Of a stretch of DNA of 64,000 bases, positions 55,763 through 62,181 are shown piece after piece. The notes under the pieces were generated by a model. That model saw only the letters and a program-made list of their open reading frames with translations. It was not told the DNA's origin and ran no database searches. Source of the DNA: Geminicoccus roseus DSM 18922 (GTDB lineage Bacteria; Pseudomonadota; Alphaproteobacteria; Geminicoccales; Geminicoccaceae); NCBI RefSeq assembly GCF_000427665.1, contig NZ_KE386572.1, positions 3,124,196-3,188,195 on the forward strand, given 5' to 3'. The translations under genes were made by a program, and so were the position numbers. Every line of letters starts with the position of its first letter. Position 1 is the stretch's first letter.

Positions 55763-56005
55763 TCAACGGCCGGCAGCCGCCTTCGTCGCCACGCTTTCCA
55801 ATTCGGAGCGCATGACCCCGATGTCGTGGAGCTCGCGGTCGGTGAGACGCGACAGCTCGTTCATGGTCTGACGATAGAGCCACCAGCGCTTGACGGTCTC
55901 CAGCAGACCCTCGCTCGCAGGCGCCTTGGAGGCGTTGCGCAGCTGCCAGGAGGCCACCGCAGTGGTCGCAAGCACGCTGTAAGGGTTGATGAATTCGATC
56001 GACAT
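55763..56005 (-). CDS. Small DUF1127 (YjiS-like) protein
   Basis: The 80-residue product has an N-terminal variable helix and the C-terminal DUF1127 signature RQTMNELSRLTDRELHDIGVMRSEL. Short, basic DUF1127 proteins are abundant in alphaproteobacteria; several bind RNA or affect phosphate and carbon metabolism and are stress-induced, but the function here is unknown. The ATG at 56005 faces the divergent dehalogenase-like gene across a 266-base intergenic region. Confidence 0.85.
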   Translation of the reverse strand: MSIEFINPYSVLATTAVASWQLRNASKAPASEGLLETVKRWWLYRQTMNELSRLTDRELHDIGVMRSELESVATKAAAGR

Positions 56006-56271: not shown

Positions 56272-57165
56272 ATGCTCGAGGGCTTCGAGAAATGGCGCGT
56301 CGCCGGCGGCGGCGCCGAGATCTTCGTGCGGATCGGCGGATCGGGTCCGCCGCTCCTCCTGCTGCACGGCTACCCCCAGACTCATGTGATGTGGCACCAG
56401 GTGGCACCCCATCTGGCCGAGCGCTTCACCGTGGTCTGTCCCGACCTGCGCGGCTACGGCGCCTCCAGCACCCCCATGGGCAGTTGGGACCATTCAACCT
56501 ATTCCAAGCGGGCGATGGCGGCCGACATGGTGGCCGTGATGGCAGGCTTGGGATTCGATCGCTTCGCCGCGGCGGGGCACGACCGGGGCGGCAGAGTCCT
56601 GCACCGGATGTGCCTGGACCATCCCGCCGCCGTCACGGCGGCCACCGTCCTGGACATCGTGCCGACTCGCACCGTGTTCGAGGCGACCGATCAGGCTCTG
56701 GCAACAGGCTACTACCACTGGTTCTTCCTGATCCAGAAGGCGCCGCTGCCGGAGCGGATGATCGGGATCGACCCGGAATTCTGGGTGCGGAGCAAGCTGG
56801 AGCGCTGGTCGGGCAGCGGCCTCAAGGCGTTCGCTCCCGAGGCGGTCGCCGCCTATGTCGATGCGTTCCGTGAGCCGGGCGTCGTCCACGCGACCTGCGA
56901 GGACTACCGGGCCGGGGCGACGATCGACCTGGAGCACGACCGGGCCGACGAGAACGCCAGGATCGCCTGCCCGCTCCTGGTGCTCTGGGGCGAGCACGGA
57001 CTGATGCACCGCCTGTTCGACGTGCCGGCGACCTGGACGCCCAAGGCGGCGGGGCCGGTGGAAAGCCAGGTGCTGCCATGCGGGCATTTCCTGCCCGAGG
57101 AGCAGCCAGGGCCGACCATCCATGCTCTGGATGAGTTCTTCGGGAAGCACGTCCCGGCAGGATGA
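56272..57165 (+). CDS. Alpha/beta hydrolase of the fluoroacetate dehalogenase type
   Basis: The 297-residue product closely follows bacterial fluoroacetate dehalogenases. It has the oxyanion HGYPQT, nucleophile D104 in GHDRGGR with the carboxylate-binding R105 and R108, catalytic acid D128 in LDIVPT, halide pocket H149-W150 (YYHWFF) and Y212 (CEDYRAGA), and base H272 (GHFLPEE). These positions match those described for the Burkholderia FA1 enzyme. W150, which favours fluoride over chloride substrates, is kept. It may therefore dehalogenate fluoroacetate or chloroacetate, but related epoxide or ester hydrolases are possible. GGGAG lies 8 bases before the ATG. Confidence 0.85.
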   Translation: MLEGFEKWRVAGGGAEIFVRIGGSGPPLLLLHGYPQTHVMWHQVAPHLAERFTVVCPDLRGYGASSTPMGSWDHSTYSKRAMAADMVAVMAGLGFDRFAAAGHDRGGRVLHRMCLDHPAAVTAATVLDIVPTRTVFEATDQALATGYYHWFFLIQKAPLPERMIGIDPEFWVRSKLERWSGSGLKAFAPEAVAAYVDAFREPGVVHATCEDYRAGATIDLEHDRADENARIACPLLVLWGEHGLMHRLFDVPATWTPKAAGPVESQVLPCGHFLPEEQPGPTIHALDEFFGKHVPAG

Positions 57166-57187: not shown

Positions 57188-58072
57188 TCAGATGGTCCGC
57201 TCGCGCCCTGGCACCGTCTCCGCCACGAACTCGATGATGCATCCACCGGCCTCGGCCGGCCCGACCCAGATCGTGTCGTTGGGCGTGCGCTGATGGGGGA
57301 CCTGGTTACGCACCAGGATGCTCTCGACCAGTCGCAGCTCGGCGACCCGGATGCCCAGGGCGGCGGGGAACGGTGCCTCGGCCACCCCGGCGCCCGGATA
57401 GCGCCGGACGACGCCGACGAGATCGGTGACGGTGAGGCGGCCGCCGCCGCCCAAGCGAAACGTGGAGCCCGCAGCCGGTCCCAGCAGCCGCGCGAAGCGC
57501 TCCCGGCTGCGGCCGACGTCCTGGACCGCCAGCACCACGAACGCCAGCGCCGTGGCGCCGTTGACATGGACCGGCCGGCTGGGATGCCAGACCACGTCGC
57601 GGGAGCGGTGCTCGATCAGGACCAGGTCGGCCTCGGGCCAAGCCCGGCCGTCAAGATGGGCCATGCGGAAGGCGGCAGGCTGGCTGCCCGAGCCGGCCGG
57701 CCACTCGCGCACCAGCGAGACCGGCGCCTCGATTCCGGGGACGTTCGGGCCGAGATCGGCGCGCAGGTCCGAAAGGTCGGGCGTGCCGAACGCCACCAGA
57801 TGGATGCCCTCCCGCCGTTTCGCGCGGCGCGCCACGTCCTGGCCATACTCCGTGCCGCCGGTGGCAGCCATCAGCTCGAGATAGCCGTGGTCCAGCGTGA
57901 TGCAGCGTCCGGCGGTGCCCCAGGCGACGATCCGGCCGCCCGGTTCGAGCTGGCCTTCGTGCGACAGTTGGGCCGACAGTCCGAACCCCATGCGCTCGAA
58001 CGCCTGGGCGGTGCGATCCAGCCGGCGCACCAGGAGCGTGACGTGATCCAGCGCGAGCTCAGGACGGGGCAT
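57188..58072 (-). CDS. VOC/glyoxalase-fold protein
   Basis: The 294-residue product opens with a glyoxalase-like beta-alpha-beta module (ALDHVTLLVRRLDRTAQAFERMGF, GYLELMAATGG) and has a second related module in its C-terminal half (FVVLAVQDVGRSRERFARLLG). This two-module layout matches Glyoxalase_3 / VOC proteins of unknown substrate. Histidine and glutamate residues at metal-ligand-like positions are present (DHV, YLELM, CIIEFV). ATG 58072 is preferred; ATGs further upstream (58099, 58135) are possible. It converges on the dehalogenase-like gene (22-base gap). Confidence 0.72.
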   Translation of the reverse strand: MPRPELALDHVTLLVRRLDRTAQAFERMGFGLSAQLSHEGQLEPGGRIVAWGTAGRCITLDHGYLELMAATGGTEYGQDVARRAKRREGIHLVAFGTPDLSDLRADLGPNVPGIEAPVSLVREWPAGSGSQPAAFRMAHLDGRAWPEADLVLIEHRSRDVVWHPSRPVHVNGATALAFVVLAVQDVGRSRERFARLLGPAAGSTFRLGGGGRLTVTDLVGVVRRYPGAGVAEAPFPAALGIRVAELRLVESILVRNQVPHQRTPNDTIWVGPAEAGGCIIEFVAETVPGRERTI

Positions 58073-58152
58073 GGCCGAACGATCCCGGGATTGAGCCATA
58101 CGCTGCAGTTGAGAAGCGATTCCACTCGCCGTCAACCTCTACCAAAGGTTGT

Positions 58153-60247: not shown

Positions 60248-61210
60248 TCAACGCCGACGCAAGGCGCTCGGCGGCGTGCCGAACTGGCGATGAAAGCTGC
60301 GGCTGAAATGCTCCAGGCTGGCAAAGCCGCAGTCCAGCGCCACGTCGCGGATCGAGCGGCTGGTGGCGGCGAGCTGGTCCCGGGCCTTCAGCAGCCGTAG
60401 CTGCAGGATGAACCGGTGGGGGCTGGTGCCGGTCTCGCGCCGGAACAGCGTGGTGAGCGCGCGCGGCGAGATGCCGGTGCGGCGGGCCAGGACCGCCAGC
60501 GACCAGCTCTCGGAAGGATCCAGCTCGATCGCCGCCAGCACCTCGCCCAGGCGGGCATGGCGCACGCCCAGCCGATTGGCCAGGGTCGGCCGTTGCGGCA
60601 GGTCGCCGGCGCGCCAGGTGGCCGCGACCAGCTGCTCGGTGATCGAGCGCACCAGGGTTTCGCCATGCCGGCGGCCGATCAGGTGCAGCATCATGTCGAA
60701 CGGTGAGGTTCCGCCGGCACTGGTGAAGCGGTTGCGGTCGATCTCGTAGAGCCTCGGGCTGAGCTCGACCTTGGGGAAGGTCGCCGCGAAGGCCGGCGCC
60801 GCCTCCCAGTGCAGGGTGATCCGGTGGTGGTCGAGCAGGCCGGCCGCGGCCAGGGGCCAGGCGCCGGTGTCCAGGGCACCCATCGCGATCCCGAACCGCG
60901 CCAGCCGGCGGAGCAGCGCCACCGCCGGTCCGGCCGCATGACGCTCCGGCTCGAAGCTCGCCACCACCAGCAGGGAACGCATCTGCGACGAGGCCGAAAG
61001 CGGCTCGTCCGCCACCACCATCAGCCCGTTGCTCGCCCGGACCGGCAGGCCGTCCAGGCTGAAGATCCGCCAGCGATACAGCTCGCGGCCAGCCACCCGG
61101 TTCGCCACCCGCAAGGGCTCCAGCGCCGAGGTGAACGCCATCATCGAGAACCGGTCGAGCAGGAGGAAACCCACCGTATCCGGCGCCGTGACAAAGGTCG
61201 GGTCCAGCAT
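60248..61210 (-). CDS. GlxA-type AraC-family regulator, probable CdhR (carnitine-responsive)
   Basis: The 320-residue product has an N-terminal DJ-1/PfpI (GATase-1-like) sensor domain (about residues 10-175; DRFSMMAFTSALEPLRVANR) and a C-terminal AraC double helix-turn-helix (about 215-318; GISPRALTTLFRRETGTSPHRFI, SIRDVALDCGFASLEHFSRSF). Regulators of this architecture include CdhR and GbdR of Pseudomonas, which activate carnitine and betaine catabolism. It is divergent from the carnitine genes at 61300 across 89 bases, a typical position for their activator. Confidence 0.88.
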   Translation of the reverse strand: MLDPTFVTAPDTVGFLLLDRFSMMAFTSALEPLRVANRVAGRELYRWRIFSLDGLPVRASNGLMVVADEPLSASSQMRSLLVVASFEPERHAAGPAVALLRRLARFGIAMGALDTGAWPLAAAGLLDHHRITLHWEAAPAFAATFPKVELSPRLYEIDRNRFTSAGGTSPFDMMLHLIGRRHGETLVRSITEQLVAATWRAGDLPQRPTLANRLGVRHARLGEVLAAIELDPSESWSLAVLARRTGISPRALTTLFRRETGTSPHRFILQLRLLKARDQLAATSRSIRDVALDCGFASLEHFSRSFHRQFGTPPSALRRR

Positions 61211-61299
61211 GCCGGAAAGTTCAGGCAGATTGCCCGATTCGTCAAACCCATCCTTGATCCGCGTGGCAACGTCCGAGCGCGATCCACAGGAGGCGTGGC
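61211..61299. promoter_or_regulatory. Divergent control region of the carnitine locus
   Basis: These 89 bases separate the regulator start from the catabolic operon start and must contain both promoters and the activator site. AGGAGG at 61288-61293 is a strong ribosome binding site for the 61300 ATG. No clear direct repeat for AraC binding was resolved by eye. Confidence 0.45.
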
Positions 61300-62181
61300 A
61301 TGAACAGGGACGTGATCGTCAGTTGTGCGGTGACCGGTGCCGGGGACACGGTCGGCCGGCATCCGGCCATCCCCGTCACGCCGGAGGAGATCGCCCGGGC
61401 CTGCATCGAGGCGGCCGAGGCCGGCGCCGCGATCGCCCATGTCCATGTGCGCGATCCGCAGACCGGCAAGGCGGCCAGGGCCCCGCATCTCTACCGCGAG
61501 GTCGTCGAGCGGGTGCGGGCGTCCGGGACAGATGTCGTGCTGAACCTGACCGCCGGCATGGGTGGGGACTATGTGCCGGAGGCGGCGGAGCCCTGGCGGG
61601 GCGGCCCCGGCACCGACATGGCCTCGGTCGAGGACCGGCTCAGCCACGTGGTCGAACTTCGCCCGGAGATCTGCACCCTCGACTGCGGCTCGATGAACTA
61701 TGCCGGCGCCGCCTATGTCAGCACCCCTGACCAGCTCCGCCAGATGGCGAAAATCATCAAGGAGGTGGGGGTACGCCCGGAGCTCGAGGTGTTCGAGCTG
61801 GGCCATGTCTGGATGGCCAACACCCTGATCGAGGAAGGCCTGGTCGACACGCCGGCAATGTTCCAGCTCTGCATGGGCATTCCCTTCGGGGCTCCCGCCG
61901 ATATCCGCGCCATGACCGCGATGCGCGACCTCCTGCATCCGGGCTCCAGCTTTGCCGCATTCGGGATCGGCCGGATGCAGATGCCGATGGTGGCGCAGGC
62001 GATGCTCCTGGGCGGCAATGTCCGGGTCGGCCTGGAGGACAATCTCTGGCTGGACAAGGGCGTGCCTGCCTCCAACGGCAGCCTGGTCGCCCGGGCCTGC
62101 GAGGTCGTGCGGCTTCTGGGCGGACGGACGCTCACGCCTGGGGAGGCCCGCGACAAGCTGGGCCTGGCCCGGCAGCGCTGA
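61300..62181 (+). CDS. cdhC: Beta-keto acid cleavage enzyme, probable dehydrocarnitine cleavage (CdhC-like)
   Basis: BKACE (formerly DUF849) enzymes cleave a beta-keto acid with acetyl-CoA. The 293-residue TIM-barrel product has the zinc ligands H47 and H49 ([11 protein letters not shown]) and E246 ([10 protein letters not shown]), plus the substrate loop LNLTAGMGG. Its neighbours, a carnitine dehydrogenase fusion and a CdhR-like regulator, indicate 3-dehydrocarnitine as substrate, giving acetoacetate and betainyl-CoA. Start ATG 61300 follows AGGAGG. Confidence 0.88.

Follow-up and report, generated by a model that had tools for sequence, protein, structure and literature searches.

Introduction

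Among the described enzymes closest to the one considered here, Alr0039 (also NOS0089) and Daro3835 (also DAR3835) are both recorded as active on fluoroacetate and difluoroacetate, among others, in the part of PMC11022551 available to us. The same part of that paper gives the roles of Arg105, Arg108, His149, Trp150 and Tyr212 in the fluoroacetate dehalogenase FA1 of Burkholderia, where Trp150 is crucial for the defluorination of fluoroacetate and dispensable for the dechlorination of chloroacetate. Naturally evolved defluorinases are called inherently rare in the accessible part of PMC11139923, according to which the characterised members of the family act on fluorine in preference to the other halogens, a sign that fluoroacetate was selected for; in the portion of PMC12350541 at hand reaction with fluoroacetic acid is held to be what the family likely evolved for.

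The gene described here lies in a window of 64,000 nucleotides (the whole stretch of DNA that was analysed) from Geminicoccus roseus DSM 18922. A preliminary description, made from the letters alone, had credited its product with eight residues known to matter for defluorination, among them a tryptophan said to separate defluorinating enzymes from those acting on chlorine only.

Results

The open reading frame at 56272..57165 on the forward strand starts with ATG and runs for 297 codons plus a stop, thus coding for a protein of 297 amino acids, and its GC content of 0.70/0.49/0.87 at codon positions 1/2/3 is the pattern of a real gene in a GC-rich genome. Pfam places the protein in general alpha/beta hydrolase families, with Abhydrolase_1 on top, PHROGs returns general hydrolase and reductase families and nothing more specific, and no NCBIfam model scores above its cut-off; taken with the PDB sequence matches, the tree and the model given below, this makes it a predicted alpha/beta hydrolase of the fluoroacetate dehalogenase family. 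Its Met1 aligns with Met1 of the Burkholderia FA1 enzyme, and the numbering of the two is the same from D104 to M245, H272 corresponding to FA1 H271.

All eight residues were read from the translation at the positions the preliminary description had assigned to them, and the alignment with FA1 agrees. On the forward strand, the codons of the nucleophile D104 and of R105 and R108 (within HDRGGR) occupy 56581..56595; the two arginines align with those of FA1 and are predicted to bind the carboxylate. D128, the acid of the Asp-His-Asp triad, is at 56653..56655 and the catalytic histidine H272 at 57085..57087, so that nucleophile, base and acid are all present on an alpha/beta hydrolase fold. The putative fluoride pocket aligns with that of FA1 as well, with the pair H149-W150 at 56716..56721 (invariant in 81 of the 81 closest rows) and the third residue, Y212, at 56905..56907. 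Near the active site, W179 (56806..56808) equals Trp180 of the H1 enzyme by numbering alone, its role being taken from the available part of PMC12955510. By homology with FA1 and RPA1163, from which every catalytic step is carried over, the present data consisting only of residues, alignment, clade and predicted fold, R105 and R108 would bind the carboxylate of a 2-haloacid whilst D104 makes an SN2 attack on the alpha carbon and expels the halide. H149, W150 and Y212 would hold the leaving halide (fluoride), a glycolyl ester would remain on D104, and H272, with the help of D128, would activate a water molecule to hydrolyse this ester, giving glycolate and fluoride.

In a sequence search of the PDB the top match was 3qyj (Alr0039; E 1.3e-104), the second 8sdc (Daro3835; E 2.1e-100), and FA1 (1y37) matched with E 3.9e-89; the similarity to 3qyj and FA1 is far beyond chance. 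A single-chain AlphaFold2 model built from a 23-row alignment has a mean pLDDT of 94.3, and its best 50 Foldseek rows consist of 3qyj, 8sdc/8sdd, 9c9f, 4nvr and RPA1163 entries (judged by title, time-resolved entries being taken as RPA1163). VIA-align superposes the model on 3qyj with Z 48.2 and 1.0 A over 291 residues, on 8sdc with Z 47.7 and 1.0 A over 293 residues, and on FA1 1y37 with Z 45.6 and 1.4 A. The predicted structure thus fits fluoroacetate dehalogenases at 1.0-1.4 A over almost its whole length.

The tree, made by a quick method from 167 protein rows and with 55 of its 164 inner branches drawn open, tells the same. A clade of 150 rows (SH-aLRT 99) holds the candidate together with FA1, RPA1163, NOS0089, DAR3835, the Delftia D4B enzyme 9c9f and the uncharacterised 4nvr, and is separated from a clade of 15 epoxide hydrolase/Cif-like rows, including 7ac0, 7jqx and 7jqz, by a branch of length 1.37 (SH-aLRT 99). 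Two remote long-branch rows (L122 and L164) fall outside both. Many of the inner forks are weak; even so, the candidate pairs with its Geminicoccus harenae counterpart (support 99) in a group mostly of genomes of the same taxonomic family, the sister group of which contains DAR3835 (fork support 92), whilst RPA1163 branches deeper. Since RPA1163 lies deeper and DAR3835 in the sister group, defluorination is the simplest inherited state.

This placement bears on the possibility that the protein is a Cif-like epoxide hydrolase, opening the ring with a histidine and a tyrosine. The fold is shared, and the lid pair H149/Y212 taken alone would also be in keeping with the His/Tyr epoxide hydrolases of PMC8244358, as far as the available part of that paper goes; the same two residues are equally those of the fluoride pocket. 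In addition, the next PDB matches after FA1, the 4b9a/4bat group (E about 1e-72 to 3e-73; Z 42.6-42.9, 1.5-1.8 A), are labelled probable epoxide hydrolase. This label is known from entry titles, which also name T131D and Q244E mutants and 'bound MFA', and the group, left out of the tree, matches the candidate as a family member would, which speaks against a clean split from epoxide hydrolases. Apart from this group, no epoxide hydrolase does better than E 1e-35 (7ac0, the next one, at 1.2e-35), as against 1e-104 for 3qyj, the set DRRDHWYH occurs in none of the 16 rows below 35% identity, with W or I replacing R105 in 12 of these 16, and in the tree, drawn without 4b9a/4bat, the candidate stands outside the epoxide hydrolase/Cif-like clade. 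On tree, residues and match scores we reject the epoxide hydrolase reading as highly improbable. The preliminary description had offered a structure-based placement among epoxide hydrolases as grounds for its own refutation, and instead both fold and tree lead to the fluoroacetate dehalogenases.

The complete set of eight residues is a trait of the whole family. It is found in 81 of the 81 rows of the closest set and in 147 of 168 rows overall, a set that holds duplicate sequences. All 147 are among the 152 rows whose identity reaches 43%, and none of the 16 rows under 35% has it. When each distinct sequence is counted once and references and candidate are left out, the figure is 139 of 143. 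Five rows at 43% identity or more depart from it: L120 and PDB 4nvr have W at the place of H149, L138 has P there, the pocket of L151 reads Y, F and F, and L152 has Y where R108 is expected. As members of the same clade in which the fluoride pocket or the arginine pair has changed, they are natural test cases for the need of the pocket. W179 is less fixed, being W in 80 of the 81 closest rows and in 132 of the 152 rows at 43% identity or more.

The importance given to the tryptophan therefore stands in one respect, as in FA1 it is needed for fluoroacetate and not for chloroacetate (PMC11022551, available part), and falls in another: with nearly every member carrying it, it marks the family and not this protein, and any hint that the candidate is special is not supported by the sequences compared. 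Could the enzyme be a chloro- or bromoacetate dehalogenase inactive on fluoroacetate? No sequence gives certainty of an activity, and substitutions surrounding the pocket alter the activity of the H1 enzyme (PMC12955510, in its accessible part). Against this, W150 and the entire pocket are present and the part of PMC11022551 at hand lists the two nearest characterised relatives among enzymes that defluorinate, so we hold such a restriction to be improbable and keep to fluoroacetate as a predicted substrate.

The surroundings of the gene add little. Upstream, two genes code for an acyl-CoA carboxylase that is propionyl-type by domain, one for its carboxyltransferase and one for its biotin carboxylase subunit, and another codes for an FAA-hydrolase; they are followed by a divergent DUF1127 gene of 80 codons (55763-56005, reverse strand), which lies between the FAA-hydrolase and dehalogenase genes and over which a stretch of 94 codons is 82% identical in Geminicoccus harenae. 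Downstream a glyoxalase-like gene (57188-58135, reverse strand) is convergent, and beyond it are MoeA, MobB, an AraC-type regulator and a BKACE gene. These last two, the regulator (top NCBIfam GbdR, of choline metabolism, below cut-off) and the divergent beta-keto acid cleavage enzyme, span 60248-62181 and may, as a guess, form a carnitine-like degradation locus. An operon or catabolic cluster was sought and none found, the dehalogenase gene standing alone between its divergent and convergent neighbours, and no adjoining gene indicates a use of fluoroacetate or haloacids. No RNA family worth naming was found near the gene, nor a sigma-70-like promoter or terminator, of which about 0.1 and 0.4 would be expected.

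Among 80 loci with a family gene, the run of flanking genes is common only to that of Geminicoccus harenae (L002). Across lineages these loci have no conserved neighbour in common; the clustered neighbours are lineage-local context only, and rare links may be missed, as the simple ORF caller picked up the family gene itself in 63 of the 80. A glutathione synthetase gene is downstream of the family gene in 10 of the 80 (L022, L024, L027, L032, L035, L038, L039, L040, L069 and L080), nine titled Dadabacteria and one Deltaproteobacteria. By the same simple caller the downstream gene is at most 223 bases away in seven of them and 0.9-2.7 kb in three; two further conserved genes on the downstream side in the ten are presumably gatC- and gatA-like, judged by eye.

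The family is widespread. Matches at E<=1e-40 occur in 23 of the 31 genomes of the taxonomic family, its own genome counted, one of them with an internal stop codon and one split across two contigs. At E 1e-60 at least 50 of 190 genomes of the class and at least 53 of 299 of the phylum have a match, the best 12 and the best 7 candidates per genome being scored in the two samples; what is counted here is hits passing an E-value, some with a stop codon or fragmentary, and not active sites. At 1e-40, 266 of 72,556 plasmid records match. Relatives are found in Dadabacteria, Thioglobus, cyanobacteria and Thermoleophilia in the 80-locus set, which was seeded with six peptide patterns (any one sufficing, and one of them with the HW motif), and also on haloarchaeal plasmids.

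Fluoride is a product of the proposed reaction, and the genome has one CrcB fluoride-channel gene, about 2.1 Mb from the dehalogenase gene and near an open reading frame that resembles a urocanate hydratase. No fluoride riboswitch was found by the CrcB gene or in the genome, one search having scored the best 150 of 922 candidates. In the class sample, for which the lists were compiled by hand, the raw counts for CrcB are 45 of 50 genomes with the family against 87 of 140 without, and none of the five family-bearing genomes that lack CrcB is more than 87% complete. When the sample is confined to genomes that reach 2.5 Mb and 90% completeness, CrcB is in 43 of 43 with the family and 41 of 43 without (p 0.49). 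As the link is gone once size and completeness are controlled, genome size explains it, and a gene near-universal in complete genomes of such size and some 2.1 Mb away lends weak support at most and says nothing specific about the dehalogenase.

Discussion

The results of this work suggest that the Geminicoccus roseus protein is an ordinary, additional member of a known and rather common family of fluoroacetate dehalogenases. The earlier proposal that it may break a carbon-fluorine bond has gained good support from homology, in sequence, tree and predicted structure alike, and from these we expect with considerable confidence that it hydrolyses fluoroacetate in vitro. By analogy it is likely to act on chloroacetate too, and the chances that it acts on difluoroacetate, judged from the two nearest characterised enzymes, are about even.

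Whether fluoroacetate is what the enzyme is for is another matter. Fluoroacetate is thought to be scarce in nature. The family, present in at least 43 of the 86 genomes of the class sample with at least 2.5 Mb and at least 90% completeness, is commoner than that, and its true job could be on some other alpha-substituted acid or electrophile, with hydrolysis of fluoroacetate real and incidental. This would be compatible with the defluorination chemistry, and it agrees with the spread of relatives from Dadabacteria to haloarchaeal plasmids, with the lack of a neighbour conserved across lineages (glutathione synthetase being nearly confined to Dadabacteria) and with the inherent rarity of evolved defluorinases stated in the available part of PMC11139923, with which the breadth of the family sits uneasily. 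It is opposed by the almost invariant H-W-Y pocket, by the preference for fluorine that the same part of PMC11139923 takes as a sign of selection for fluoroacetate, and by the origin for fluoroacetic acid thought likely in the portion of PMC12350541 at hand; we find this role just as credible as not. Coming back to defluorination as the predicted chemistry, it is hard to refrain from a broader proposal, for and against which we are equally inclined: a full site for cleaving the carbon-fluorine bond would be near-standard in the larger genomes of Alphaproteobacteria, passed on within families such as that of the candidate and near-invariant, and either a natural alpha-halo acid (e.g., fluoroacetate) is much commoner than believed or the pocket is kept for another common substrate. 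A widespread, near-invariant defluorinating site whose natural substrate may or may not be fluoroacetate turns the purpose of the family into a testable question. At the same time, as one more predicted defluorinase, 53-55% identical to enzymes listed for difluoroacetate, the protein could reasonably be included in enzyme screens.

Compared with known systems, the closest is the Geminicoccus harenae orthologue, 77% identical and with conserved flanking DNA, from which we found no difference and on which a literature search (Geminicoccus and dehalogenase) returned no report. RPA1163 of Rhodopseudomonas palustris (3r3u and others) is 46-49% identical and matches over its full length with Z of about 45-47, but belongs to a deeper branch within the family. 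FA1 of Burkholderia (FAc-DEX; 1y37), at 49% identity, shares the numbering, W179 and the pocket loop L244-M245, although it sits in another branch. DAR3835 of Dechloromonas aromatica (8sdc), from the sister group, is 53% identical and has all eight residues and W179, with FV at 244-245 in place of the candidate's LM. NOS0089 of Nostoc (3qyj), finally, is 55% identical and likewise has all eight residues and W179, whereas it carries II at 244-245 of the pocket loop and stands in another branch of the family.
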